Source: Cladopsammia gracilis (lineage: Eukaryota > Cnidaria > Anthozoa > Scleractinia > Dendrophylliidae). Taken from it: DNA of 64,000 nucleotides. The position numbers and the translations under genes are program-made. The first letter of the stretch is position 1. The number at the start of each line of letters is the position of its first letter. Below are positions 12,129 through 63,614 of the stretch, piece by piece. The notes under the pieces are model-generated. The model was given only the letters and a program-made list of their open reading frames with translations, made no database searches and had not been told where the DNA came from. The DNA lies in assembly GCA_022457155.1 (NCBI GenBank), contig JAJGOT010000450.1, positions 253,501 through 317,500 of the forward strand, given 5' to 3'.

Positions 12129-15100
12129 TTATTTTTCTCCTTGTTTACAATAAAATGTTTTGTCAATTCTTGCTTCAGGGATGGGAGGGTGTTCCTTGTA
12201 CTCGGCGATGGGACTGTACTTAATATCTTTATATCCAAACACTGCTGGTCCGACAGTCGCTAATCCCTGCGGGGTGGCCCACTGTGGATAACAGGGCATG
12301 GCGATGGCAGCCACTCGCAAACCATAACGAACTTCCTCTGTTGTGATTGGCTGACCTGTGTCTTCATCAACCAAAGAGATCAGATCAGGAACTGTGGCTA
12401 CAATTCTGCCTTTGGTTCCGTCAGGTCTGAGGATGAAAGCCACGTAGTTCTCATTCTGGAACTCGATGCCAAGATTTACTCCATTGAATCGCGGCGCCGA
12501 GCCCTCAATTGTTAATGTTCCTCTGTCGAATCCACCTTCAGTTACTCGGCGTGTATCAGCGATCTGAAACAAAAGATATTTCCAGCTCAGCTTGAACATT
12601 CAACTTACTGGTTTGTATACTTCTCTTTACAGCAAGTTACAGTCTTGGACACAACTCGTTGAGTCAGTAGTGTTTCCGCGCGCAAGACAATCGTCAGTCT
12701 AATGTCCTGTCAAAAAACACATTTATCGAAGCCCTCCCCTCCACCTCCGTTCAATGTTGCATAGAGGGGTTGCTCAGAGACCAGGGATGCTTTTTGAGTA
12801 TGTACAACATTGTTTTGTGGGGGGGTAGGGGGAGGTACAGCTGTAGATATGATAATTCCTTTTAAATGCTGAGAAATGCTCAAAATTTGTCTAAGTGTCT
12901 CAAAAAATAATAGAACGGTTTTCAATTGAGTGTCGTAAAACCAAAAGCAAAGTCATCATTCTGGCCAATCACAGCAGACACAGACAATCCAATGAACCAA
13001 TCAGAACTTAAAGTAAATACATGTCGTCGGCGCCAAGCGCGGGAAAATGCGTGCGAATAAATCACGATTGGTTTTGGTTTTACCTGTGATTGGTTGAGAA
13101 AATGTCGCAAGATTTTTGAGCCAATCACAAAGCGTAGCAATGAAAAATGTCACTAAATTACTTTCGACATTCAATTGAAAAGCGCTCTTAAAGTTATTAA
13201 ATTATCTTTAAAAAAAGAAATTGTTTTTCGCTATGTTTGCGTAAGGATAGTGGTAAAAAAATCGGCTAAAACTATGGTCTTTTTTATCTATATGAACTTC
13301 AAAGAAAGTGTGTTAGCAAATAAAAAGATTAGCTTCCTTTGCAGGCAAGTCATTGGGTGTAAGAACGGCTGAGATCTCTCTCTTTCTCTCGATCTCGATC
13401 TCGATGTCGATCTCGATCGAAACACAAACACAAATTTCCGAACCTTTCCAGTTATTAGTAGTCTGCCGTTCTCAAGTTGAAGGATGCTGTCTACGGGAGA
13501 CACCTTGTCGTCTCTTGCATGAAGTACAGAGTTACCGAGACGCCATATGCGACTCAAGGAATACAGGACGCATTTTTCCTTAACATCACTCCAGTCAAGA
13601 ACTGAAGCGAGACCAGATGCGCATCTAAAAAGTGAACATAACAAAGAAAATGCAACCCTTAACCTTTTATGCACCTTTTTTGGCAGAAAAGGTACCTTTT
13701 TCATATACTGTCCATAGAAAATGGTACTCCTTTCATTTACCTACAGAAGAAACACTGCATCTCTTTACTATACGCTTGAAATAAACTTATGGAACGATAT
13801 TCTTCACAGAAAAAAACATCCCAGCAGCCGTTACGTGCCGGTCTGTTTGAAATATTTTGAAAGGCCCTTTTTATATACTTCAACTCGTGAAATCCCTAAA
13901 CTTTTTTGTACCTCCAGCCTCAAAAAAAAAGTTAAAAAAAAATTTTTGTACCTCCAGCCTCGTTTTGGTTTACTTGATATTTTTATGGGTTTGAATCGAA
14001 ACAAAGTCAACTCCAACCACACTTTCACTCAAAGAATAGGGTACCAAGTACACAACTGAAAAATGGTCTGTTGTCATGAGTCCATGGAAAAGTATTTTTC
14101 TTTTCAAAGACGGTAGCAAAATTCTTAGTTCCTCCACAACGACCTTATTTTCTAAAACACACAAGGCTTTGGGGACCATTTTCACACGCGAGTGCTTGAG
14201 CCCGCGTTGTAACCGAATGCCTCTCAGAAAAGCAATAATGCCGTCTCGTCTCGAAGCCTAACGATTATTCATGTGAAAAAGTTTTAATTCATTTGTTCTC
14301 GCTGCGAGTTTTGTCTTACAGCGTGATTGGCTAATACTAAAACGTTCTAGCTCTGAACGCTTGAAAAACGCCCGACTAATTTTATGTGCAAACAAACGCA
14401 AAGCCGATTAATAAATAATTAATTTACTTTTCATATTTTACACACGACATTATACATGCCCCATTTCAATTGTTTTCTCTCTGAAGAAGTCCTCCAAACG
14501 TTTTGGTGATTCAGCAAACGTCACTGCAACAACATTTCCTTTCTCGTCTGCGATCGCCGCAGGGTACGACGGACTACCATAAACATACGGCAAAAACATC
14601 TGCAGCTCAGGGAAGGCTCTCCCCATGCCATCCGCGTCCACTATGGGAAGTCCCAACTCTGCGCCGGCTATCAGAGGTTCAAGACTGTTAACGCCTCCTA
14701 TCTCAGAACAAGCGAGAGCGACAAACTTCTTGTTTGATTGAGAATGCTGTGTAGCAAAATCAAGAGAATGTATTTTAATTTAAAGTGCCCCTGTGATCAA
14801 ATTTTTGATTTTCATTTTTTTACACTTTCGTGTACTATTAGACTTTCTTACGTATCTTGCCAAATTTCAATCCATTACGAACATCAGAAGTCATTTTATT
14901 TTAACATTTATTTCCAAGAATTTACGGCCGCCATTAATCAACCTTGTTCGAAGGCTTGGTTGCGGATGGGAGAAAGTGACGTCAAAGACTCAAACATACC
15001 TCACGGGTTGAAATTATAATAACAATCAGCATAGAAAATTGCACGAAGAACAAGTCCAAAGTTTTTGTTGCTTTTCGCGTGATTTTAAATACTTATTGTT

Positions 15101-44200: not shown

Positions 44201-44949
44201 ACTACCGATGGACGAAAATGTAGCCTTCAACTGATAAAAGCTACTTTTCGACAAGTGGCAACTTTATTCATTTTAATTTACAAGCTTTTAAATCTCAAGT
44301 GCGGTAGTCAGATCTGTTTTTTTATCATCATAATGTCGGTACAACTAGCTCAGAGAACACACTTTTATAAGGAAATGACCATATTGCTTTAAACGTGAAT
44401 TATTACATAAGCTTCAGTGAAATACAAGGATTTTACCCATTGCATAAAAATCATATTTTTCGAGTTGAACACTCGAACAGACATTTCATATCTGCGAGCA
44501 CCCGTGTCTTTTTTATATTTCATCTTTAACTTTTACATAAATGTTCTTAGATTGCTGATGTAAACCGAGTAACTGAAGGCGGATTCAACAAAGGAAGCTT
44601 GAAAATTGAGGGCTCGGCTCGATTCAATGGAGTAAATCTCGGCATCGAGTTCCAGAATGAGAACTACGTGGCTTTCATCCTCAGACCTGACGGAACCAAA
44701 GGCAAAATTGTAGCCACAGTTCCTGATCTGATCTCTTTGGTTGATGAAGACACAGGTCAGCCAATCACAACAGAGGAAGTTCGTTATGGTTTGCGAGTGG
44801 CTGCCATCGCCATGCCATGCTCTCCACAGTGGGCCACCCCGCAGGGATTAGCGACTGTCGGACCAGCAGTGTTTGGATATCAAGATATTAAGTACAGTCC
44901 CATCGCAGAGTATAAGGAACACCCTCCCATCCCGTTGGCTAGAAATTAA
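34693..44949 (+). CDS. HyuA-like hydantoinase/oxoprolinase fused to DUF917, copy B
   Basis: Exons matching those of copy A: about 34710-35161, 35563-35842, 36088-36268, 37096-37164 (or to 37180), 37943-38161 (or from 37947), 39056-39172, 40012-40285, 41110-41398, 41543-41768, 42525-42811, 43184-43358, 44551-44949. From exon 2 onward the phases stay in frame to the stop. The first exon is doubtful: at the position of the copy A start the codon is TTG, and an acceptor-like TAG ends at 34709, so an unseen upstream exon may supply the start. The first phosphate loop reads DVGETNTDAV, a glycine-to-glutamate change at a family-conserved site, while DIGGTTTDVGVI in exon 3 and the DUF917 motifs GCGGGGSHYLGRL and LPIVDADGAGRAFP are kept. 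Either a diverged enzyme or an early pseudogene. It lies divergently from copy A, about 4.9 kb away. Confidence 0.8.
36370..36657. mobile_element. CCAAT-rich MITE family, copy 4
   Basis: The ends GAGCGCTTTTCAGATGAGTG and the complement of GAGCGATTTTTAATCG are flanked by TA. The interior matches the 284-bp copy over its full length. It lies in the intron between exons 3 and 4 of copy B. Confidence 0.8.
37299..37425. mobile_element. Small hairpin MITE, 127 bp
   Basis: GTTGTGGTGCAATTTTGTCC at the left is mirrored at the right end. The arms extend about 45 bp with mismatches. It lies in the copy B intron between exons 4 and 5. No target duplication was defined. Confidence 0.65.
38162..38232. repeat. 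(ATT)n microsatellite at a splice donor
   Basis: A run of more than 20 TTA/ATT triplets starts directly after the donor of copy B exon 5, followed by poly-T and poly-G. It could interfere with donor recognition. Confidence 0.9.
42054..42088. repeat. (TTAG)n microsatellite
   Basis: About eight tandem GTTA/TTAG tetramers lie in the copy B intron between exons 9 and 10. Confidence 0.85.
42878..43061. mobile_element. Long-arm hairpin MITE, 184 bp
   Basis: The arms of about 75 bp start AGACAAATTCGGCTGACGCA and are nearly perfect complements around a short loop near 42970. It lies in the intron between exons 10 and 11 of copy B. The target duplication is unclear. Confidence 0.8.
43542..43684. mobile_element. 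Hairpin MITE, ~143 bp
   Basis: Two imperfect complementary arms (ATGGTAAACG at the left, CGTTTACCAT at the right, with CATCGAGTTAT inside) surround a loop near 43605. It lies in the copy B intron between exons 11 and 12. Confidence 0.65.
43850..44064 (+). mobile_element. Short retroposed LINE-tail insertion
   Basis: A 215-bp AT-rich segment ending in an A-rich tail is flanked by the direct repeat AAATGGATGGCGCGCA (43834-43849 and about 44065-44080). The long duplication and tail show target-primed insertion of a heavily 5-prime-truncated retroelement in the last intron of copy B. Confidence 0.85.
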
Positions 44950-46310: not shown

Positions 46311-46760
46311 CGATAGCAAGCAGGAGTTGTGATCTCTGTATCCTTTTAGAAGTAATTTTGTAAATTAAAGGTCCAGAGAAAGCATCACACATTTATATAA
46401 GGATTCACAGTGAACCAGTTTTAAGAGGTTTTTTAAAAGTCAATAACTCACTTTGAGTTGTTTTCATTGCAACAGTGCTTAATGTAAAAAAAAGCATTGC
46501 CTTCTGAACCATCGCCAATACTGTAAGAAAATAGGACCCCGCCCGTACCCCATAATTTAGTAAACTAGATTAATTCAAATTCTTTACGAGGAATTCTTTT
46601 GAATATTTTCGTGACGCGATCGTCAATAATGGAAAAAGACATCAAATGTCAATGGAACTCTTGTAAAACGTGTTGATGGCTCATTAGGTAATACATTCAT
46701 GACTACCGTCACGAATATAGAACAGTGCTTGTACTACTCTAAACAGTATTTAATGTATTT

Positions 46761-49645
46761 ACTGTAGTTAGCATAGTTACTGTAGTTGGTGTAGTTAGTG
46801 TAGTTACTGTAGTTGTTGTAGTTACTGTAGTTCGTGTAGTTGCTGTAGTTGGTGTAGTTGGTGTAGTTCGTGTAGTTGCTGTAGTTCGTGTAGTTGGTGT
46901 AGTTGCTGTAGTTGGTGTAGCTGCTGTAGTTGGTGTAGTTCGTGTAGTTGCTGTAGTTCGTGTAGTTACTGTAGTTGCTGTAGTTGCTGTAGTTCGTGTA
47001 GTTGCTGTAGTTGGTGTAGTTCGTGTAGTTGCTGTAGTTAGTGTAGTTGCTGTAGTTGCTGTAGTTGGTGTAGCTGCTGTAGTTGGTGTAGTTGGTGTAG
47101 TTGTTGTAGTTCGTGTAGTTACTGTAGTTGGTGTAGTTACTGTAGTTCGTGTAGTTGGTGTAGTTGCTGTAGTTGGTGTAGTTCGTGTAGTTCGTGTAGT
47201 TACCGTAGTTCGTGTAGTTGGTGTAGTTCGTGTAGTTGCTGTAGTTACTGTAGTTAGTGTAGTTCGTGTAGTTACTGTAGTTCGTGTAGTTGGTGTAGTT
47301 ACTGTAGTTGGTGTAGTTGTTGTAGTTACTGTAGTTGGAGTTGTTGCTGTAGTTCGCGTAGTTACTGTAGTTGGTGTAGTTACTGTAGTTCGTGTAGTTG
47401 GTGTAGTTGGTGTAGTTGCTGTAGTTGCTGTAGTTGGTGTAGCTGCTGTAGTCGGTGTAGTTCGTGTAGTTCGTGTAGTTGCTGTAGTTCGTGTAGTTGG
47501 TGTAGTTACTGGAGTTCGTGTAGTTGCTGTAGTTCGTGTAGTTGCTGTAGTTGGTGTAGTTACTGTAGTTGGTGTAGTTACTGTAGTTGGTGTAGTTGTT
47601 GTAGTTACTGTAGTTGCTGTAGTTGCTGTAGTTCGCGTAGTTACTGTAGTTGGTGTAGTTACTGTAGTTCATGTAGTTGCTGTAGTTGCTGTAGTTGGTG
47701 TAGTTGCTGTAGTTGGTGTAGTTCATGTAGTTGCTGTAGTTCGTGTAGTTGCTGTAGTTCGTGTAGTTGCTGTAGTTACTGTAGTTAGTGTACTTGGTGT
47801 AGTTACTGTAGTTGGTGTAGTTACTGTAGTTCGTGTAGTTGGTGTAGTTCGTGTAGTTGGTGTAGTTCGTGTAGTTGCTGTAGTTCGTGTAGTTGCTGTA
47901 GTTACTGTAGTTAGTGTAGTTGCTGTAGTTGGTGTAGTTACTGTAGTTGGTGTAGTTACTGTAGTTGGTGTAGTTGTTGTAGTTACTGTAGTTGCTGTAG
48001 TTGCTGTAGTTCGCGTAGTTACTGTAGTTGGTGTAGTTACTGTAGTTCATGTAGTTGCTGTAGTTGCTGTAGTTGGTGTAGTTGCTGTAGTTGGTGTAGT
48101 TCGTGTAGTTACTGTAGTTGGTGTAGTTACTGTAGTTGCTGTAGTTGCTGTAGTTGGTGTAGTTGCTGTAGTTGGTGTAGTTAGTGTAGTTGGTGTAGTT
48201 CGTGTAGTTGGTATAGTTACTGTACTTGGTGTAGTTGCTGTAGTTCGTGTAGTTGCTGTAGTTACAGTAGTTACTGTAGTTGGTGTAGTTACTGTAGTTG
48301 ATGTAGTTGGTGTAGTTGCTGTAGTTGGTGTAGCTGCTGTAGTTCGTGTAGTTGGTGTAGTACGTGTAGTTGGTGTAGTTCGTGTAGTTGGTGTAGTTCG
48401 TGTAGTTGTTGTAGTTCGTGTAGTTGCTGTAGTTACAGTAGTTACTGTAGTTGGTGTAGTTGGTGTAGTTACTGTAGTTGGTGTAGTTACTGTAGTTGCC
48501 GTAGTTGGTGTAGTTGCTGTAGTTGCTGTAGTTGTTGTAGTTCTTGTAGTTGCTATAGTTACTGTAGTTGGTGTAGTTGTTGTAGTTAATTACTGTAGTT
48601 GGTGTAGTTGCTGTAATTGCTGTAGTTCGTGTAGTTACTGTAGTTGGTGTAGTTACTGTAGTTCGTGTAGTTGGTGTAGTTGCTGTAGTTGGTGTAGTTC
48701 GTGTAGTTGGTGTAGTTGCTGTAGTTCGTGTAGTTCGTGTAGTTGCTGTAGTTCGTGTAGTTACTGTAGTTGGTGTAGCTACTGTAGTTGCTGTAGTTGG
48801 TGTAGTTGCTGTAGTTGGTGTAGTTACTGTAGTTCGTGTAGTTGGTGTAGTTGCTGTAGTTGGTGTAGTTGATGTAGTTCGTGTAGTTGGTGTAGTTCGT
48901 GTAGTTACTGTAGTTGGTGTAGTTGCTGTAGTTGTTGTAGTTCGTGTAGTTACTGTAGTTCATGTAGTTGCTGTAGTTGGTGTAGTTCGTGTAGTTGGTG
49001 TAGTAGCTGTAGTTGGTGTAGTTCGTGTAGTTCGTGTAGTTGCTGTAGTTCATGTAGTTACTGTAGTTGGTGTAGTTACTGTAGTTCGTGTAGTTGGTGT
49101 AGTTGGTGTAGTTGGTGTAGTTACTGTAGTTGCTGTAGTTGGTGTAGTTACTGTAGTTGTTGTAGTTGCTGTAGTTACTGTAGTTGCTGTAGTTGCTGTA
49201 GTTGCTGTGGTTGCTGTAGTTGGTGTAGTTGGTGTAGTTACTGTAGTTGTTGTAGTTACTGTAGTTGCTGTAGTTACTGTAGTTGCTGTAGTTGCTGTAG
49301 TTGCTGTAGTTGGTGTAGTTACTGTAGTTGGTGTAGTTCGTGTAGTTGCAGTATTTACTGTAGTTGCTGTAGTTACTGTAGTTGCTGTAGTTCGTGTAGT
49401 TACTGTAGTTGGTGTAGTTACTGTAGTTCGTGTAGTTGGTGTAGTTGCTGTAGTTGTAGTTGTTGTAGTTCAAGTAGTTGCTGTAATTCGTGTAGTTGCT
49501 GTAGTTCGTGTAGTTGCTGTAGTTCGTGTAGTTGCTGTAGGTCGTGTAGTTGCTGTAGTTGGTGTAGTTGCTGTAGTTGCTTGAGTTCGTGTAGTTGCTG
49601 TAGTTCGTGTAGTTGCTGTAGTTGGTGTAGTTACTGTAGTTGCTG
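46761..49645 (-). repeat. Left 9-bp satellite array (GTAGTTNNT)
   Basis: About 320 tandem monomers of the form GTAGTTNNT. The variable pair is mostly GG, CG, GC or AC, so that the opposite strand reads AACTACACC, AACTACACG, AACTACAGC or AACTACAGT. Long minus-strand frames (48050-46734, 49473-48586) would encode repeats of Asn-Tyr-Ser/Thr, but they exist because the monomer is a multiple of three and lacks stops; other frames are open too. No promoter or start context supports a gene. Confidence 0.95.
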
Positions 49646-50080
49646 TGGGTGTAGACTTGTCACAAGTCCCTTCCAATGTCAAATTTCGCCTAGTTAGGTT
49701 CTTCGTTGGAAGGGACTTGTCGCACTTGCAGCGCGGGAAATATGTACCTTTGGATTTTTCCACCGGTAACGTAAGAAGCATATTGTCAAATGAACAAGCA
49801 ATTCCTGAACTGCGTCATAAGCTCGAGAATATCAGAGTTGGTTACCGCTGTCGCCGTGTACTTGGTTTTTAAAGCCGTAGTTTCGGGTTATCGGAGTAAT
49901 AGCACGCATGTAAAAGATATAAAATAGAAAGAAAAAGTTTCAAGAATACTAAGTTGCCACTATAGTGAACAAAGAGAAACTTCAAGCGATGAAATTCTGT
50001 TTCGAGGAACTTCATATGTTTATATCAATGCAGGGCGATATTTCTCCGCACGTCAGTACCGAAGAAGCGGAGTTTTAAAG
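49646..50080. other. Unique loop of the foldback element
   Basis: The 435-bp spacer holds a 15-bp perfect stem (ACAAGTCCCTTCCAA at 49662-49676 and its complement at 49706-49720, loop 29 nt). A 75-codon frame at 49645-49872 (plus) contains FRLVRFFVGRDLSHL and RGKYVPLDF and is not recognised. The part 49950-50073 resembles 58696-58834 (shared TTTCGAGGAAC and CCGAAGAAGCGGAGTTTTAA), so the loop was probably taken from a dispersed, once-coding repeat. Confidence 0.7.
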
Positions 50081-50081
50081 C

Positions 50082-53000
50082 AACTACACCAACTACACGA
50101 AAACAGTAACTACACCAACTACACGAACTACACCAACTAAACCAAGTACACCAACTACACGAACTACAGCAGCTACACCAACTACAGCGACTACACCAAC
50201 TACAGCAACTACACCAACTACACCAACTACAGCAACTACACGAACTACACGAACTACAGTAACTACACGAACTACACCAACTACAGTAACTACAACAACT
50301 ACAGTAACTACAACTACAGTAACTACACTAACTACACCAAGTACACCAACTACAGCAACTACACGAACTACAGCAACTACACAAACTACAGCAACTACAC
50401 GAACTACAGCAACTACACGAACTACAGCAACTACACCAACTACACCAACTACACCAACTACACCAACTACACCAACTACAGTAACTACACCAACTACAGT
50501 AACTACACGAACTACACCAACTACAGCGACTACACAAACTACAGCAACTACACCAACTACAGCAACTACACCAACTACACGAACTGCAGTAACTACACCA
50601 ACTACAGTAACTACACCAACTACAGCAACTACACCAACTACAACCAACCAACTACAATAACTACAGTAACTACACCAACTACAGCAACTACACCAACTAC
50701 AGTAACTACACCAACTACAGTAACTACACCAACTACAGCAACTACACGACCTACAGCAACTACACGAACCACAGCAACTACACGAACTACAGCAACTACA
50801 CGAATTACAGCAACTAGTTGAACTACACCAACTACAACTACAGCAACTACACCAACAACACCAACTACACCAACTACACGAACTACAGTAACTACACCAA
50901 CTACAGTAACTACACGAACTACAGCAACTACACCAACTACAGTAACTACACCAACTACAGTAACTACAGTAACTACACCAACTACAGTAACTACAGCAAC
51001 TACACTAACTACAGTAACTACAGCAACTACACGAACTACAGCAACTACACGAACTACAGCAACTACACCAACTACACCAACTACAGCAACTACACCAACT
51101 AAACGAACTACACGAACTACACCAACTACAGTAACTACACGAACTACAGGAACTACACGAACTACACGAACCACACCAACTACAGCAGCTACACCAACTA
51201 CACCAACTACAGTAACTACAACAACTACACCAACTACAGTAACTACACCAACTACAGCAACTACACTAACTACAGCAACTACACGAACTACAGCAACTAC
51301 ACGAACTACACCAACTACAGTAACTACACCAACTACAGTAACTACAGCAACTACACTAACTACAGTAACTACAGCAACTACACGAACTACAGCAACTACA
51401 CGAACTACAGCAACTACACGAACTACAGCAACTACACGAACTACACCAACTACACGAACTACAGCAACTACAGGAACTACAGCAACTACAGCAACTACAC
51501 CAACTACAGCAACTACACCAACTACAGTAACTACAACAACTACAGTAACTACACCAACTACAGTAACTACACCAACTACAACAACTACAGCAACTACACC
51601 AACTACAGCAACTACACGACCTACAGCAACTACACGAACTACAGCAACTACACGAACTACAGCAACTACACGAACTACAGCAACTACACGAATTACAGCA
51701 ACTACTTGAACTACAACAACTACAACTACAGCAACTACAGCAACTACACGAACTACAGTAACTACACCAACTACAGTAACTACACGAACTACAGCAACTA
51801 CACCAACTACAGTAACTACACCAACTACAGTAACTACAGTAACTACAGTAACTACAGCAACTACACTAACTACAGTAACTACAGCAACTACACGAACTAC
51901 AGCAACTACACGAACTACAGCAACTACACCAACTACAGCAACTACACCAACTACACGAACTACAGTAACTACACCAACTACAGTAACTACACGAACTACA
52001 GCAACTACACGAACTACACGAACCACACCAACTACAGCAGCTACACCAACTACACCAACTACACCAACTACACCAACTACAGTAACTACAACAACTACAC
52101 CATTGACAGTAACCACGCCAACTACAGTAACTACACCAACTACAGCAACTACACTAACTACAGTAACTACAGCAACTACACGAACTACAGCAACTACACG
52201 AACTACACCAACTACACGAACTACAGCAACTACACGAACTACACCAACTACAGCAACCACACGAACTACAGTAACTACACCAACTACAGTAACTACACCA
52301 ACTACACTAACTACAGCAACTACACGAACTACAGCAACTACACGAACTACAGCAACTACACCAACTACAGCAACTACAGCAACTACATGAACTACAGTAA
52401 CTACACCAACTACAGTAACTACGCTAACTACAGCAACTACACCAACTACAGTAACTACAACAACTACACCAACTACAGTAACTACACCAACTACAGCAAC
52501 TACAGTAACTGCAGCAACTACACGAACTACAGCAACTACACGAACTACAGCAACTACACGAACTCCAGTAACTACACCAACTACACCAACTACACGAACT
52601 ACACCAACTACAGCAGCTACACCAACTACAGCAACTACACCAACTACACGAACTACAGTAACTACACCAACTACAGTAACTACAACAACTACACCAACTA
52701 CACCAACTACAGCAGCTACACCAACTACACGAACTACACGAACTACACCAACTACAGTAACTACAACAACTACACCAACTACAGTAACTACACCAACTAC
52801 ACCAACTACACCAACTACACCAACTACACGAACTACAGTAACTACACGAACTACACTAACTACATTAACTACAGCAACTACACGAACTACACGAACTACA
52901 CCAATTACAGCAGCTACACCAACTATAGCAACTACACCAACTACAGCAACTACACCAACTACACGAACTACACCAACTACAGTAACTACACGAACTATAG

Positions 53001-53947
53001 CAACTACACCAACTACACCAACTACAGCAACTACAGCAACTACATGAACTATAGTAACTAAACCAACTACAGTAACTACGCGATCTACAGCAACTACAGC
53101 AACTACACCAACTACAGTAACTACAACAACTACACCAACTACAGTAACTACAGCAACTACACGAACTACAGCAACTACACGAACTACAGCAACTACACGG
53201 ACTCCAGTAACTACACGAACTACAGCAACTACACGAACTACACCAACTACAGCAGCTACACCAACTACACCAACTACACCAACTACACGAACTACAGTAA
53301 CTACACCAACTACAGTAACTACACGAACTACAGCAACTACAGCAACTACAGCAACTACAGTAACTACAACAACTACACCAACTACAGTAACTACACCAAC
53401 TACAGCAACTACACCAACTACAGTACTACACGAACTACACGAACTACACTAACTACAGTAACTACAGCAACTACACGAACTAACACGAACTACACGAACT
53501 ACACCAATTACAGCAGCTACACCAACTATAGCAACTACACCAACTACAGCAACTACACCAACTACACGAACTATAGTAACTACACCAACTACAGTAACTA
53601 CACGAACTACAGCAACTACACCAACTACACCAACTGCAGCAGCTACACCAACTACAGCAACTACACGAACTACAGCAACTACACGAACTACACGAACTAC
53701 ACCAACTACAGCAACTACACGAACTACAGCAACTACAGTAACTACACGAACTACAGCAACTACAGGAACTACACCAACTACAGCAGCTACACCAACTACA
53801 GCAACTACACCAACTTCACGAACTACAGCAACTACACGAACTACACGAACTACACCAACTACAGCAACTACATGAACTACAGTAACTACAACAACTACAG
53901 TAACTACACTAACTACACCAACTACAGTAACTATGCTAACTACAGTA
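50082..53947 (+). repeat. Right 9-bp satellite array (AACTACANN)
   Basis: About 430 tandem monomers AACTACANN in the orientation opposite to the left array. The third codon is nearly always ACC, ACG, AGC or AGT, with rarer AAC, ACT and AGG. A landmark block with a shortened monomer (AACTACAACTACAGC preceded by TTGAACTAC) occurs at about 50818 and again at about 51706, and once, inverted, in the left array near 49450. Plus-strand frames of up to 451 codons of Asn-Tyr-Ser/Thr arise from the repeat and are not supported as genes. Confidence 0.95.
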
Positions 53948-54028
53948 AATACATTAAATACCGTTTAGAGTAGTACATGCACTGTTCTATATTCGTGACG
54001 GTAGTCATGAATGTATTACCGCTCATTA

Positions 54029-54639: not shown

Positions 54640-55050
54640 TCTGTGGATAAAATCCTACAATGTGACCGTTAAAATGGAAGCTATTGAGCAGTACTTTCCT
54701 GTGGTACTGTTTATTATGCTGTACAAGGCGTTTCTTACTTTTGAGTCTGGGATGAAATCCGAAAGTGTGACCCTTCAAATGAAAGCTATTGAGCAGTACT
54801 TTCCTGCGGTACTGTTTATTATGCTGTACAAGGTGGTTCTAACTTTTGAGTCTGTGGATTAAATCCTAAAGTGTGACCATTCAAATGAATGCTATTGAGC
54901 AGTATACGTTCCTGTGGTACTGTTTATCATGCTGTACAAGGTGGTTCTAACTTTTGAGTATGTAGATGAAGTGCTTCAGTGTGACCATTCAAATGAAAGC
55001 TGCTGAAGTGAACTCTTTTATAGTGCTGTTTGTTTTTCAGTATATTTTAC
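54640..55050. repeat. ~106-bp tandem repeat, four copies
   Basis: Four direct copies of a unit starting near CTGTGGATRAAATCC and including GAGCAGTACTTTCCTGTGGT, with increasing divergence toward the last. A two-copy open frame (54608-54862) is a by-product. The unit looks like a dispersed cnidarian repeat, from general recollection only. Confidence 0.8.
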
Positions 55051-57555: not shown

Positions 57556-58369
57556 TTTTTCTTTCGTTTTTTCTGACTGTCTTTCTTAAAATAAAGTAAA
57601 CTGAACATGGGCTTTTTGAAGTGTAAGAAATTGGGCATTTTTTACTGTCGGTTTAAAAACAATATCTCCATCTACATTAAATGGAACATACATGTAGAAA
57701 GCTCATGCAATTTTAATCATCGCTGTGGTTCTAATAGCTCATTAAATCATAAAAAAACAGACAACAAAAAGAAAGAGTGAAAAAGCTTTTAACCTGTCAA
57801 ACAAGACGCGACATAAAAAATTAGCAAGTTATATGTGAAATAGTGGTTGTGTATATTAATAATAGGCATTCAAGAGCGGTTTGTGTTTTAAGTGAAATAG
57901 AACTAAAGATCGAATAACGTAACACGTAACTGGAACCACTTTACTTCTTGTAGTTCTGCGTGTTTCCTTCACCAACCGCTTGAAGGACCTTGACAAAGGC
58001 AAGATGAAGACAATACGTCAGCGCTTAAAGAAAGTTTGTGCTGAATTTAAAAAGAATTAATGCGATTGACAGCAGTGCTGACCAACGTAAATGCATGTTA
58101 TAACAAGCAGTTCATGTGTATTCCTTTTCAAAACTTTCGAAAAACACAAGAAAAATTATCTAGAGGTAGTTGAGAGTCCAGCAGGCGAAAAAGGGTAAAA
58201 ATGATTGCAATTTAAACTCTCATTATTCGTTTATTGGGTTGATTTTGTCTTTTATTGCCATGACTATTTTCTTGGATTACAAGACTTGTTCTTCTCAAGG
58301 ATTTTATGATTCGAGTAGTGAGAATGACGGATATAAAAAATCCAGTATATAAGTAGAATTGAGTGGGAG

Positions 58370-59555
58370 AGCGGAAAAGCGGCTGGTAATAGCGGAGCAC
58401 TCGCCGGGCCGAAGGCCCGGCTGCGCAGCCCCACACTCATAGAACCTATGCCCGTCATTTTTCATGGTCATGGCTAGCGGAATGTTTTGCGGGCGCGTCG
58501 TGTGCCCGCCGGGCGTCCGTCGCGACGGACTTGCTCGCGGGCGCGTATGACGTCGCAAAACATGAGCGTATGACCCCACACGCGCGGCTACACAGCCGTC
58601 AGCTCGGTAAACACTTTGTAAAGTTTTAAAAAAGTTGGATCTTTCGCAGTGTTAGGAGGAGCAGTAAAGTCGTTATTTCCCTGCATTTTTTCGCGGTTTG
58701 CTACTCAAGACAGGAATACTAATTAAGGGATACTCAGTAGCCGCTTTAGTGGAGAAAGAAGAGCTTTCGGAGATAAAATCTTCTTTCGAGGAACGGTTTT
58801 CAGAACCGAAGAAGCGGAGTTTTAACGAATTTCCAAGCAGTCCAGGATTTAAGGTAAAATAAATCACATTTTTCGGTGGGAATTTATGTTGATATCAATT
58901 TTTGATTGACTTTTCCTTTGTGTTCTCTTAAGTTTTGGAGACATGTTTATGAAACGCGCTTAATTAAGTCGTGTTGTTATCTTGAATTTCATCGAGGACA
59001 GCTCTGCCTTGATGCGCTGTAAATGGTACGTGTTTTGCTTTTAAACATAAAGCAATGGAGATTTGAATAAAATTTTTCGAAAGAAGATTGTGTTGTCTAT
59101 TTTTATGTGTTTGTTCATTCATTACATAGATTGAAAAGCGATTTATGTAAACAAAACGAGACTTAGATTTTCTGTCTTCACTCGCGTCGCCTTATTATGC
59201 AAATATGTTTGTGTATTTTTGCAATTTGGATTTCCAAATCAGTTTCTCGGGCAATTTTTGACAAACAAAAACTGTATTTTATTCGGAATGTAGTCGTACA
59301 AGTTATTCTAGACAGAGAAAAGTTGTTTTTGTGAACTTTTGTACGGTCTAAATGTACTGTGCAGACGGTCGGGTAATACTGTTTTTTGAGAATTACTAAA
59401 ATTGATAAATAGCCCGGTCGTCAATCTTAATTCTTGTGCTTCCGACCTTTCACCTTAGTTAAGTTTCACCTTAGTTTATAAGCTTGTTCAAAGTGCGACG
59501 CTGTTAGGCTCTGCCTATCTATATGTATTAGAGCCTATACAAAGTCGCTCGTGTC
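58370..59555. mobile_element. ~1.2-kb insertion of unknown type inside GPCR pseudogene
   Basis: Comparison with the intact receptor shows the receptor sequence stopping near 58370 and resuming near 59555. The insert begins GC-rich (GGGCCGAAGGCCCGGC palindrome near 58410-58425 and CGTCCGTCGCGACGGAC near 58504-58520). It has a frame near 58660-58855 that includes VEKEELSEIKSSFEERF and resembles part of the foldback loop, then becomes AT-rich. I found neither terminal repeats nor a target duplication. Confidence 0.55.
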
Positions 59556-59905
59556 AGTAGAAGAAACGTGTAGTACATAGTGCATCCGTTTTTTCTGCAC
59601 TTCTGAAAAAATGCAAATACGGAACCAAGATCCCCATCGGTGTAATCCAAGTTAGCAAGATAAGAACTTCTTTAATTGTTCCTGTTAATATGGTCACCTT
59701 TATAGGAAACACGATAGCAATAAATCTGTCCACAGTAATCAGCACAAGGCTTTTAATAGAAATCAATAGAAAATGATTTTCTCTTGATAGAAACTGAATA
59801 CGAAAGGGTCGTTAAATACATCGTGAGTTTACACTGACATAAGGAAACCGATTCTCCGAGAACTAAGCTAGTCTGCTACCCAGTGTGTACCGCAGTGCTA
59901 AACCA

Positions 59906-60323
59906 TATTCAATTGCAATATGGAATATTCATAGAATATGAATTCCATATTCAATTAGAATATGGAATACTCTGGCTGATGAACTTAATTTGAACATGGA
60001 CAGCTTTACCGCTTTTAAATCTGCTATGCTCCAATACTATTGTAAATCTGTTGAAACCTTTGACTGCGATAACCCTCACACTTTTAAGACAGTGTGTTTG
60101 AAATGCAATAGTAGCTAATAGTTCCCGTAGCCTCGTACGTCTTGTGTCATGTTGTAATTAGTTTTTGTCTGTTCGTTTATAGTAGTCAGAATTGTATTGT
60201 ATTGTTTTTAATGTAATGGGCCCACGCTGTTGCGGTCACCCGCCAATTTATCTACTGATGTTATTTTTTTGTGTTATGCTTATTTGTTCCTCGGCGAAGC
60301 TAATAAATTAAAATAAATTAAAT
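59906..60323 (+). mobile_element. LINE 3-prime end in GPCR pseudogene
   Basis: The direct repeat TAAACCA (59899-59905 and 60324-60330) bounds a segment whose plus strand encodes the end of a CR1-like reverse transcriptase (GIRMEYSG-like region replaced by YGILWLMNLI in other frames; the productive frame reads WNTLADELNLNMDSFTAFK to a stop near 60115). A 3-prime UTR and an AATTAAA-rich tail follow. The first 60 bp are palindromic, possibly from a rearranged 5-prime end. Confidence 0.75.
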
Positions 60324-60559
60324 TAAACCAGAAGCCACAGAAAGAAGATCTGAGATTGTCCTGCTATGCATGATGTAGTAGTTAGTGCTGGTCCGGAGGT
60401 TCTGTTGTTGTTGTTGTTGTTTAGGAAAAGTTATTATCACAAGCTAAGAATTGCCGAATACAAATGATATTACGAATTCATTAATAATAAAATAACTATT
60501 TTCATATTATTACATACAAATTATTTACTTACAATGTTGTGTTACGCTTGATACGGCTA

Positions 60560-60701
60560 TTTCAATTAACGTTGTCGGATGAAAGCTCAAAGCCAAGACC
60601 GCAAGTTAGTATGGGTAGTTGTAAACAGCCATTGCATAAAAATCCCATACTACCTTGCGGTCGTGGCTTTTCGCTTTTTCATCCGACAACGTTAATTGAA
60701 A
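60560..60701. mobile_element. TA-flanked hairpin MITE, 142 bp
   Basis: The ends TTTCAATTAACGTTGTCGGA and complement, flanked by TA, continue as long imperfect arms (about 60 bp) with a short loop near 60630. Confidence 0.8.
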
Positions 60702-61146
60702 TAACTGTATATAAAGGCGCCTATGTTTAATTTACTTTATTACGACTTACTTTATTTGAATGTTTTGTCTTGTTTTAAGTTTTGTTAGCAAATGTCACTG
60801 TTTAGACATCGGTTCGTTTGACTAAGATCATTTTGTAACATATAATACGAAACTTTACCTCGAAAACAAACCCTCATTTGAATCAGTCCTCCTGCATTTA
60901 TCTTCGTATAATAGAGCGAAAGCTTTCGGTTTTTTACTATGTTTCTAGCTGCACTAGCCGTTTTGTACTTTATGAATATAATTTAATAATTTCGTTTTAT
61001 GACGTGTTACATAATGGAACATTAGTTTTACGAATTTTGTAAATGTATTGACTAGCTGCTTTACTTTCTGATGAATCAGGAATAGAATAAGATTTCTCCT
61101 AGTTTAATTAGCTTTTATGACAACATAAATTTTGGCTGTACATGTA

Positions 61147-61330
61147 GTAGGTAGGTAGGTAAACTTTATTTAGACACGGTATCAATTCATACTACATGCT
61201 CTTCCATCGAGCCGTGTTTTTAACAACAATAGATTAAGTACTTAACTAATTTAAATTATCTAACTAAATTAATTTTCTATATAAAGTTGTATTAATTTAC
61301 ATTATAATTATCTTTGTTGTAAAGTGTTTT
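61147..61330 (-). mobile_element. LINE 3-prime tail, minus orientation
   Basis: The (TAGG)n run at about 61147-61161 followed by TAAACTTTATTTAGACACGG is, on the minus strand, a polyadenylation-like TAAATAAAG motif and a (CCTA)n tail typical of CR1/L2-type LINEs. The upstream limit is uncertain. Confidence 0.55.
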
Positions 61331-62386
61331 GACTCATATACTGCTCTCACTACTGACTACAAATAGACCTTGCTTGTAATCGTTACTTTGATTTTTCTCG
61401 GAGCTCACCGTGATCACAGTACGTCTACGACTTTTAGTTTGAGTTGAGATTAAACTGTGTGGATCTAGTTTATGTTTGATTCATTGCTGTCCGTTAAAAA
61501 TCTAGTTGGAGTTGATCTTGGTACCGAGGAAACTTGACGAGTTCCTTTTTCCGCGTAAGAAGCGACTCACTCAGAGCTTTCCACAGATTTGGTCAGTGCA
61601 TTTTCCCGCCAAATTTCCCGTCGTGGACGCCAAAAGCTGAGGCAAAACTCATTGTCACACTCGAGAAAATCTCACGTCACAGTTGTATCTAGTAAATAGG
61701 ACTAATTATCAAGGTAGACCTTTTATGCTTAGTATGCTTAGTATGCTTTAATGCTTAGTACCTTTTATGCTTTTATACCTAGTATATGGCCTAACTTTCC
61801 ACGAGTCCGGTCGGATGCTCTAACCACTGATCGGAGTTGTGTGTGCGGAAGGCCATAAGTTCATATCCTTTGTCGCACTCTCGTGACACCATGGACATGA
61901 CATCTTTCTCCTCGGAAATGTCTGTTTTGAGAAGACTAGGGATAAACAATTGGGCGACGGAACAACAGCTTTCATTTTGTGGTGATGAAACACTTACTGG
62001 ACCTCGCTGAAGTAGTTTCACTTTATAGCTGTTGTTCGCATTTGTAGGAAAACATACATAGATAGTACATATAGCCGAACGAAGATCCGTTTACTTTTCA
62101 AACAAAAGGTTGGCAGCGGCCAGATATAAAGTAATCTTAGAAACCATATTTCCGCTAAACTATTTAAAATAAGAGAAAAACATTTACAGTTTTAGGGTTT
62201 TGTGGACGTGCAATTAAAATTTACTCATGGGTCACTTTATTGTTCACCATCAATCTAGCCACCTGCATTTTTAAGCGCCATGACAATCAGCATGATTGAA
62301 TAGCAAAAGCAACTATGATAAGTTATAGTGGTTTTATAATATATTTAAGAGTTTAGTGTATGTTTTAACTGAAACTACATTAAAGA
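61331..62386. other. Intergenic stretch, nothing firm
   Basis: A 76-codon minus frame at 61791-62021 overlaps a repeat-like block (GTGGTTAGAGCATCCGACCG on the minus strand) with a partial tRNA A-box resemblance but no B box. Direct ATGCTTAGT repeats occur near 61727-61765. No gene is supported. Confidence 0.35.
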
Positions 62387-62522
62387 TCATCCTCCGGCTA
62401 AGACCCAGGTGCAGTTAGAGTTAAAAACCCGACAAAAATCGGCGGATTGGGCGGATTTCTGTCGGGTTTTTACCTCGTTTCGCCCCGACCAACTACCCCT
62501 GTACCTTCCGCGAGGATGACCG
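62387..62522. repeat. Small inverted repeat with AAAAACCCGACA hairpin
   Basis: AAAAACCCGACA at about 62425 is mirrored as TGTCGGGTTTTT at about 62462, and outer ATCATCCTC/GAGGATGAC motifs bracket it. It may be a small MITE 3-prime of the GPCR gene. The boundaries are weak. Confidence 0.5.
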
Positions 62523-62558
62523 TAAAAGATCTGTTAATATAAAAAGTAATCTGCAAAC

Positions 62559-63614
62559 TTATGAAAATCTCTGTATATTATAAGCTGTTAGTTCAATATT
62601 TCCTTCACGTGGTAATTGCTCATGACTCTCAGGCAAAGTAAAACGGCTAAAACATGAACGACACTTGACAACAGCCAGACGAAGACAATTATTCAGCGAT
62701 TGTCGGTAGTTTGTGCTGAATGTAAAGAGAATTACAGGATTGGCAGCAGTGCTGACTATTGGGAGAAAATAAAGGCATATAATAACAAGTATTTCTTGTT
62801 TATCCCTTTTTAAAACTTTGAAAAACCCGAGAAGAATAATCCAGAGATAGTATGGAGTCCAGCATGCGAAAAAGATAACATTGATCGTAATTAAAGCCTC
62901 CATTATTCGTTGATTCTGTTTACGTCTTCTTATACCACTGAAACCATTTCCTGCGATAGCAGGATTTGTTCTTCTCAAGGATTTCATGATCCGAGTATTA
63001 AGTATGATGATGACAATGAGAGGGATGAAGTAAAGAAACACAACACCCAGTATCGGGTAGATGGTATTAAGTAACCTGCCTGGCGCGTCATCAGCGCAAA
63101 TGAACGGTCCATCAATTTCTTGTGAACTTCTGGAAAAGTACAAATATGGAGACAAGATCACCATTGGTATAACCCAACTTAGCAAGATAAGGGCTTCTCT
63201 TATCCTTCCTGTCATCATGGTCATCTTCATAGGAAACACAGTAGCAATGAATCTGTCCACAGTAATTAGCACAAGGTTTACAATAGAAACAGAATATGAA
63301 AGGTTCGTTAAGTACATCCCAAGTTTACACTGGAATGGAGACGCAAAACCGCCGAAAACAGACAGTCTGCTGCTTGCGAACAGTGCCGAATCGGTACCAA
63401 CATAAAGAAGATCGGAGACTGCCATGCTTGTGATGTAGTAGTTAGCGGCGCTCCGAAGGTTGTTTGTTTGTAGAAAAGAGACGATTACAAGAATATTGCC
63501 GATTGCGGATAGCAGCGCAACAAAACCGATGGCTACAGAAAGAGTGGCTTTAAATGGATAAGAAACGTGTGTTATTTCGTCGAGATGGCTGAAGAAAAAA
63601 GTCGAGTTGTTCAT
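62559..63614 (-). CDS. Rhodopsin-type (class A) GPCR
   Basis: Intronless frame of 351 residues. TM1 has N40 (IGNILVIV), TM2 D68 (VSDLLY), C96 and C173 pair the extracellular side, TM3 ends D120-R121-F, TM4 W147, TM6 C251-W252-T-P254 (full CWxP), TM7 N292-P293 (NPVILF instead of NPxxY). The N-terminus is short with an NNST sequon; loop 3 is basic (GIRRRKQNQR). It is similar throughout to the receptor at 55411 and to both pseudogenes, so the cluster arose by tandem duplication. The receptor signals through G proteins at the cell surface by family knowledge; ligand unknown. The ATG at 63614 is the only in-frame start that gives a normal N-terminus. Confidence 0.94.
   Translation of the reverse strand: MNNSTFFFSHLDEITHVSYPFKATLSVAIGFVALLSAIGNILVIVSFLQTNNLRSAANYYITSMAVSDLLYVGTDSALFASSRLSVFGGFASPFQCKLGMYLTNLSYSVSIVNLVLITVDRFIATVFPMKMTMMTGRIREALILLSWVIPMVILSPYLYFSRSSQEIDGPFICADDAPGRLLNTIYPILGVVFLYFIPLIVIIILNTRIMKSLRRTNPAIAGNGFSGIRRRKQNQRIMEALITINVIFFACWTPYYLWIILLGFFKVLKRDKQEILVIICLYFLPIVSTAANPVILFTFSTNYRQSLNNCLRLAVVKCRSCFSRFTLPESHEQLPREGNIELTAYNIQRFS

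Follow-up and report, generated by a model that had tools for sequence, protein, structure and literature searches.

The 64,000-nucleotide stretch of the coral genome of Cladopsammia gracilis analysed here (assembly GCA_022457155.1, contig JAJGOT010000450.1, positions 253,501 to 317,500 of the forward strand; hereafter the window) contains two long, opposed arrays of a 9-bp satellite, and raises the question of whether these are a local expansion of genomic DNA or the arms of a mobile element. Our analysis showed that they form a foldback element of 7,334 bp at 46,687-54,020 (window coordinates), which is very probably a non-autonomous cut-and-paste DNA transposon; this reading rests on its exact ends, the 8-bp duplications of its target sites, dispersed copies, unfilled sites, and arms and loops that vary between copies. 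An earlier note on this DNA had placed the element at 46,679-54,028, which is the right locus but takes in the duplications as well. Its parts are:

46,679-46,686, plus strand: left target-site duplication, GCTCATTA, flush with the element end
46,687-46,728, plus strand: left terminal inverted repeat, 42 bp, perfect, GGTAATACATTCATGACTACCGTCACGAATATAGAACAGTGC
46,687-49,659, plus strand: left arm, 2,973 bp, a unique outer domain followed by a GTAGTTNNT array from about 46,755
49,660-50,080: loop, 421 bp
50,081-54,020, minus strand: right arm, 3,940 bp, a AACTACANN array (50,081-53,961) followed by the outer domain
53,979-54,020, minus strand: right terminal inverted repeat, 42 bp
54,021-54,028, plus strand: right target-site duplication, GCTCATTA, flush with the element end

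The terminal sequence, GGTAATACATTCATGACTACCG..., is the same at both ends over 42 bp (42/42 identical) and the same 8 bp stand directly outside each end, as the earlier note had described; its figures of about 2.9 and 3.9 kb for the arms also agree with the lengths measured here. The 22-bp terminus, with up to 3 mismatches allowed, occurs twice in the window (expected 0.00), at the two ends of the element, whose family has ends of the GGTAATAC... type. The arms had been thought to consist of monomers only; each in fact opens with a unique outer domain of about 70-90 bp, and the remainder is nearly all monomers. The left array (limits 46,754-49,646 in Tandem Repeats Finder) holds 320 monomers with a spacing of exactly 9 in 314/319 cases, and the right array 429 monomers (419/428 cases). 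The variable dinucleotide (NN) of the monomer is chiefly GG, GC, AC or CG, and each arm has its best self-match at 18 bp. The arrays contain open frames as long as 936 codons, as a gene for a Thr-rich repeat protein would; however, the arrays are opposed around the loop, spacings of 8, 10, 13, 14 and 17 break the frame, and variation at the NN positions alters a residue in the TTX frame, so that we give the existence of such a gene practically no credence.

Is the element found elsewhere? We searched the whole assembly (877.8 Mb, 1,469 contigs) and obtained 42 matches to a 96-nt end, for which 40 of 62 first-look candidates were scored, and 96 + 75 = 171 matches to a 21-nt end with up to 3 mismatches, compared to 9 + 18 = 27 for the same pattern read backwards. 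At least 39 of the 21-nt ends are exact among the matches listed. Eleven inverted pairs of ends were examined, the window pair and ten on other contigs, and nine have perfect, mutually different 8-bp duplications flush with the ends: GCTCATTA in the window, AAGGGTAT at C901, CCAATCAG at C350, GACTATGG at C273, CAAGAGAA at C116, CCTTCAGT at C1335, TCTAAAAT at C1215, CAGCAATT at C802 (where one end starts with C, not G) and GGAAGTTT at C1237. The 22 ends begin with GG in 21 cases and CG in one. In the ten copies measured (C1237 being excluded for a nested insertion), arm lengths range from 821 to 3,940 bp; loops are of 0-5 bp in seven, 421 bp in the window copy, 1,033 bp at C1215 and 2,201 bp at C116. 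Loop size thus differs from copy to copy, and repeat number both from copy to copy and from end to end within a copy.

The count of eleven pairs leaves out the single-ended or rearranged copies at C632, C694, C992, C980, C298, C267 and C760, a second end on C47, remnants at C1160 and C803, and a pair on C1; ends at C241, C304 and C1030, also among the matches listed, lie outside the examined pairs. The C1 pair (G000:C1:3974370-3974904) is a short copy of 535 bp with a brief left array, other sequence inside and a duplication matching at 7/8 positions. At G000:C632:98261-100900, the outer domain minus its first 12 bp occurs again in direct orientation within the array, 1,605 bp away, in what looks like a tandem duplication of end and array. 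Family ends lie back to back at G000:C760:43966-44006 (1-base overlap) and G000:C304:409614-409653 (2-base overlap), each with a third end about 2.3 kb off; the two places may be haplotypes or copies of a single locus, or may represent an end-to-end junction.

For two insertions, relatives of the occupied target site exist that lack the insert. The flanks of the C116 copy, joined through a single CAAGAGAA, match C1277 over 238 vs 238 bases at 98% identity, and the whole query is matched at C1279 (96%, 234 bases for 240); the match to the filled C116 site is split in two, and the rest of the 13 matches in total are more diverged. The unfilled sites at C1277 and C1279 may be paralogues of the C116 site or another haplotype. 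The joined flanks form a single open frame, protein kinase-like by eye. At C1160 and C803, an exon of a tandemly duplicated gene family that has, by eye, a small cysteine-rich domain contains a remnant some 130 bp long, which comprises the left end and a few monomers. There are 12 filled copies in the four stretches read (C1160 at about 929-945 kb, C803 at about 2,252-2,272 kb), some of which may be two haplotypes of one gene. AGAACTTT stands on both sides of the insert, with the right-hand one altered by one base in 1/12, and TTACC, as at the right end, is present in 8/12. One paralogue (L104:4,570-4,757) has a single AGAACTTT and no insert, and a second unfilled paralogue is more diverged. 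Since the remnant occupies the same exon position in all 12 copies, the sequences suggest that this insertion spread through gene duplication. The transposon family has thus reached genes: two insertions lie in apparent coding exons, one of them kinase-like by eye and the other belonging to a small family of tandem genes.

The alternative of a local expansion of the 9-bp satellite followed by inversion, with no mobile element involved, would account for a body made of tandem satellite and for arms of unequal length, but it leaves unexplained the ends at many loci, the distinct 8-bp duplications at 9/11 pairs and the two target sites with unfilled relatives, and is extremely improbable. The earlier note had taken the window copy to prove mobility, for which one copy with a duplication is insufficient; the copies with different duplications, together with the unfilled relatives of two target sites, do bear out its claim of a mobile element, and the lack of other copies that it had named as grounds for abandoning that claim was not what the genome-wide search found.

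The similarity of the two arms could also have arisen as a palindrome assembly artefact, with one arm duplicated from the other in reverse complement. Long inverted arrays are prone to assembly error and the present evidence comes from the assembly only; nevertheless, this explanation is very improbable, given that the arms are unequal (2,973 vs 3,940 bp) and align over 2,934 columns with 90.7% identity, and that the ten pairs on other contigs have arm lengths of their own and, in 8/10, duplications of their own. Aligned without gaps, the arms match at 49/50 bases in every one of the first five 50-bp bins and are 97.9% identical over the outer 282 bp, where 184/188 array bases are in register; none of 3,159 more internal placements exceeds 173/188. 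Past the outer 600 bp, the arms aligned with a score of 1,812 and an identity of 91.0%, vs means of 1,768 (standard deviation 16, maximum 1,797) and 90.0% for 20 simulated arrays built on the monomer-order statistics of the right array. The longest exact match between the arms is 108 bp; 100 first-order simulations reached no more than 99 bp, but 100 second-order ones reached up to 116 bp. On the strength of the register and the simulations, the outer arms are a true inverted duplication, and the pairing of the inner arms is mostly what any two arrays of one satellite would give. The hairpin of about 3 kb proposed earlier is possible, with pairing beyond 600 bp only slightly above that of simulated arrays.

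How the arms evolve was examined over the outer 96 columns of 22 arms, and those of one element tend to evolve in concert. Mean identity is 0.980 for arms within one element and 0.920 (standard deviation 0.035) for arms of different elements, and 12/22 arms have their partner as best match, alone or in a tie. The C116 and C1215 copies each have private variants in both arms, and one rearranged stretch is common to all four arms of C802 and C1237. The C350 and C273 copies, with similar centres, lie at two sites with different duplications; their left ends are identical over the 96 columns and their right ends 0.989 identical, whereas left-to-right identity within each is lower (0.968 and 0.979). 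As left-specific variants, right-specific variants and the centre are all shared at differing sites, it looks as if this element had been copied as a unit.

The genome also contains a sister family, whose ends read GGTAATACGTTCATGATAACC and of which six inverted pairs occur among the matches listed. The two families agree at 31/34 first bases and differ in the outer domain beyond. Perfect 8-bp duplications flank the sister copies at C365 (TAATTTTG), C525 (CTTTGCAG) and C289 (GAAATAAG). In the three sister copies whose arrays were read whole (C365, C525 and C271), the GTAGTT core of the monomer is found again, followed mostly by CTT, CTG or CGG, at a mixed spacing of 8/9 bp.

The most probable explanation of the window element, a non-autonomous foldback transposon moving by cut and paste, would work as follows. 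A transposase supplied in trans by another element would recognise the conserved terminal 34 bp or so and make an 8-bp staggered cut, with GTAGTT, present many times per end, serving as putative repeated subterminal binding sites. Unequal exchange and repair would lengthen or shorten the arrays and make both arms of a copy more alike; internal deletions within the arrays would eliminate the loop. Several observations weigh against this explanation. Pairs C604 and C47 (2/11) in the family, and pairs C271, C194 and C350 (3/6) in the sister family, have no perfect 8-bp duplication; for 10/22 arms, the best match is not the partner arm; and the unfilled sites may represent paralogous loci, not alleles. 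A transposase gene with the same termini, which the earlier note had proposed to look for, was not found in the stretches read, no search having been aimed at Mutator, hAT or P transposases. Frames of at least 140 residues at 11 loci beside rearranged or single-ended copies were, by eye, of Polinton type or unrecognised.

Which superfamily might supply the transposase? Duplications of 8 bp are made by members of the hAT and P superfamilies. Membership of the Merlin superfamily, with mobility driven by a Merlin transposase, would fit the 5'-GG termini and 8-bp duplications, since Merlin elements, according to the available part of PMC8101967, end in 5'-GG and make duplications of 8 or 9 bp; several Merlin families carry tandem repeats internally, and 10 cnidarian species gave hits. 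The C. gracilis genome has 53 matches to the DDE domain (DDE_Tnp_IS1595), five of them with an intact 301-residue frame. However, both shared features (5'-GG and the 8-bp duplication) are weak evidence, and the three contigs that carry a domain match together with an end (up to 2 mismatches, among the matches listed) have them about 125 kb apart at the nearest. In 2.2 kb around one intact-frame copy, there are no family ends, nor inverted ends flanked by a duplication of 8 or 9 bp. No link of the 53 domain matches to the family's ends emerged among the matches listed, and we regard a Merlin origin, with a Merlin element as the partner, as possible but doubtful. A foldback of the Mutator type is, in our judgement, unlikely: the available text of PMC4079207 regards Mutator as the apparent home of most foldbacks and suggests that Tetris, with duplications of 8-10 bp, belongs there too, but the 13 perfect duplications found here are of 8 bp (for the ends as drawn), and Tm1 usually has 9 bp according to the part of PMC3169594 available.

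The copy on C1237 pointed to another candidate, because Pox_A32-type ATPase, integrase-core and phospholipase A2-like genes lie between its foldback ends, which are 28.5 kb apart, as might be expected if the family were a non-autonomous Polinton/Maverick derivative. Polinton/Maverick elements have 5'-AG ends and make 6-bp duplications. The domain matches are to an integrase core (E 3.9e-11), a phospholipase A2-like protein (8.6e-10) and a Pox_A32-type ATPase (1.2e-14), with a weak match to an adenovirus-type protease (0.008); no capsid protein was identified in this interior. The genes, however, sit within inverted ends of their own, nested in the left array, of 406 bp at 99.5% identity, starting AGTAGT and flanked by a 6-bp duplication, GGTGTA, of the array monomer. 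By its genes and ends the insert (in G000:C1237:286239-315316) is a nested Polinton, which is ruled out as the autonomous partner by the nested ends and the 6-bp duplication, and a Polinton derivation of the foldback family has next to nothing to recommend it. The integrase has at least 125 scored matches genome-wide (6,814 first-look candidates). A 1,251-residue frame in the insert, tried as a DNA polymerase on the basis of its motifs, has only weak endonuclease VII and Rho_N matches, with nothing in NCBIfam and unrelated PDB chains at E 0.21 or worse, and neither this frame nor the ATPase has relatives in viral contigs. The end sequence of the foldback family has 0 matches in viral contigs. 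The monomer pattern does occur in viral contigs (46 stretches) and prokaryote genomes (33), but the 15 longest of these runs (7 to 18 units) have a near-constant NN, unlike the coral arrays, and were therefore judged unrelated.

Why should the arms of such an element consist of hundreds of short repeats? We propose that GTAGTT is a putative repeated subterminal binding site for the transposase, because the hexamer is kept in both families while its neighbours and spacing have changed. There is a precedent in Galileo, for which the footprinting of one transposase site led to the identification of others in its tandem repeats (PMC3688188, in the part available). The alternative is concerted evolution of a shared ancestral array. 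Tentatively, and with less than even confidence, we would go further and suggest that the satellite owes its existence to transposition, in that GTAGTT is a binding site, selection for ends that capture transposase grew the arrays to kilobases, and such platforms can turn into free satellite; this suggestion takes in the divergence of the remaining end sequence and the split in spacing, which is 9 bp in one family and a mixed 8/9 bp in the other. A hexamer kept in many copies per end in two families of one genome makes the growth of foldback arms testable by binding. The finding thus bears on why foldback arms grow and on foldback elements as a source of satellite DNA, a role proposed for them previously (PMC4079207, in the part available).

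The element belongs to a known architectural class, that of foldback elements, having long terminal inverted repeats made largely of short tandem repeats, duplications, dispersed copies and variable loops. Foldback (FB) of Drosophila melanogaster and TU of sea urchin likewise have long inverted repeats of short tandem repeats; duplications are of 8 bp in TU elements and 7 bp in Galileo. The earlier note had named Foldback and TU as the nearest known architecture; close precedents for the architecture are also found in Tetris, Galileo and Tm1. Tetris of Drosophila virilis, compared by description from the available text of PMC4079207, has long inverted repeats with a flanking domain and then tandem repeats, a variable middle, no autonomy, 8-10 bp duplications and repeats that feed satellite growth; its repeats are of about 220 bp and its inverted repeats at most 1,735 bp, compared to a 9-bp repeat present hundreds of times and arms of up to 3.9 kb here. 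Galileo, of the P superfamily, again by description in the available parts of PMC3688188 and PMC3573991, has foldback-like inverted repeats, tandem repeats and differences in repeat number from end to end, but its inverted repeats are of 0.5-1.2 kb and its transposase sequence is known. Tm1, a Mutator/Foldback element of root-knot nematodes, is described in the available part of PMC3169594 as having composite inverted repeats and short tandem motifs whose counts differ between ends; the motif is most often 14 bp, in 1-9 copies per end, with 9-bp duplications, unlike the hundreds of copies and 8 bp seen here. We found no published foldback family from cnidarians, which is weak evidence of absence, as subscription literature lay mostly outside our coverage.

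The loop, which by present boundaries is shorter than the 435 bp given earlier, links the window copy to others. With its edges included, the window loop shares 97.9% identity across 435 bp with the beginning of the C116 loop, which is 2.2 kb long, and 98.2% across 439 bp with a relatively inverted stretch of the C1237 copy. Because its counterpart is the opening 435 bp of the C116 loop, the window copy resembles a form shortened by internal deletion. Three further features concern the loop region:

49,662-49,676, plus strand: left half of a 15-bp inverted repeat in the loop, read from the sequence (partner 49,706-49,720)
49,926-50,078, plus strand: loop segment homologous to window 58,708-58,825 (score 77 vs a maximum of 39 in 200 base shuffles)
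58,708-59,531, plus strand: sequence beyond the element, related to the internal (loop) region of the family but diverged

The predicted fold of 49,640-50,090 (451 nt) takes in the 15-bp inverted repeat (z -2.2, with 1/100 shuffles as good). The C116 loop runs on into sequence 75% identical to window 58,800-59,425, and another part of it is 90% identical to window 59,531-59,204 (minus strand). Peptides from the loop and the 58.7-kb region had no Pfam match, nor did the two tried against PDB find any there; a six-frame translation of 57,600-62,580 had no Pfam match, and Rfam and tRNA scans of the window gave nothing. An apparent short hairpin repeat at 60,546-60,712 resembles, by eye, a miniature inverted-repeat transposable element (MITE).

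The genes of the window are of animal types, encoding rhodopsin-type receptors, a BTB-Kelch protein and a reverse transcriptase. Immediately to the right of the element, at 54,640-55,001, a 105-bp unit is repeated 3.4 times. Similar exons lie on opposite strands at 12,129-12,599 (minus, with an S-Me-THD_C match) and 44,551-44,949 (plus), with additional similar frames between them, and are possibly the product of an inverted gene duplication.

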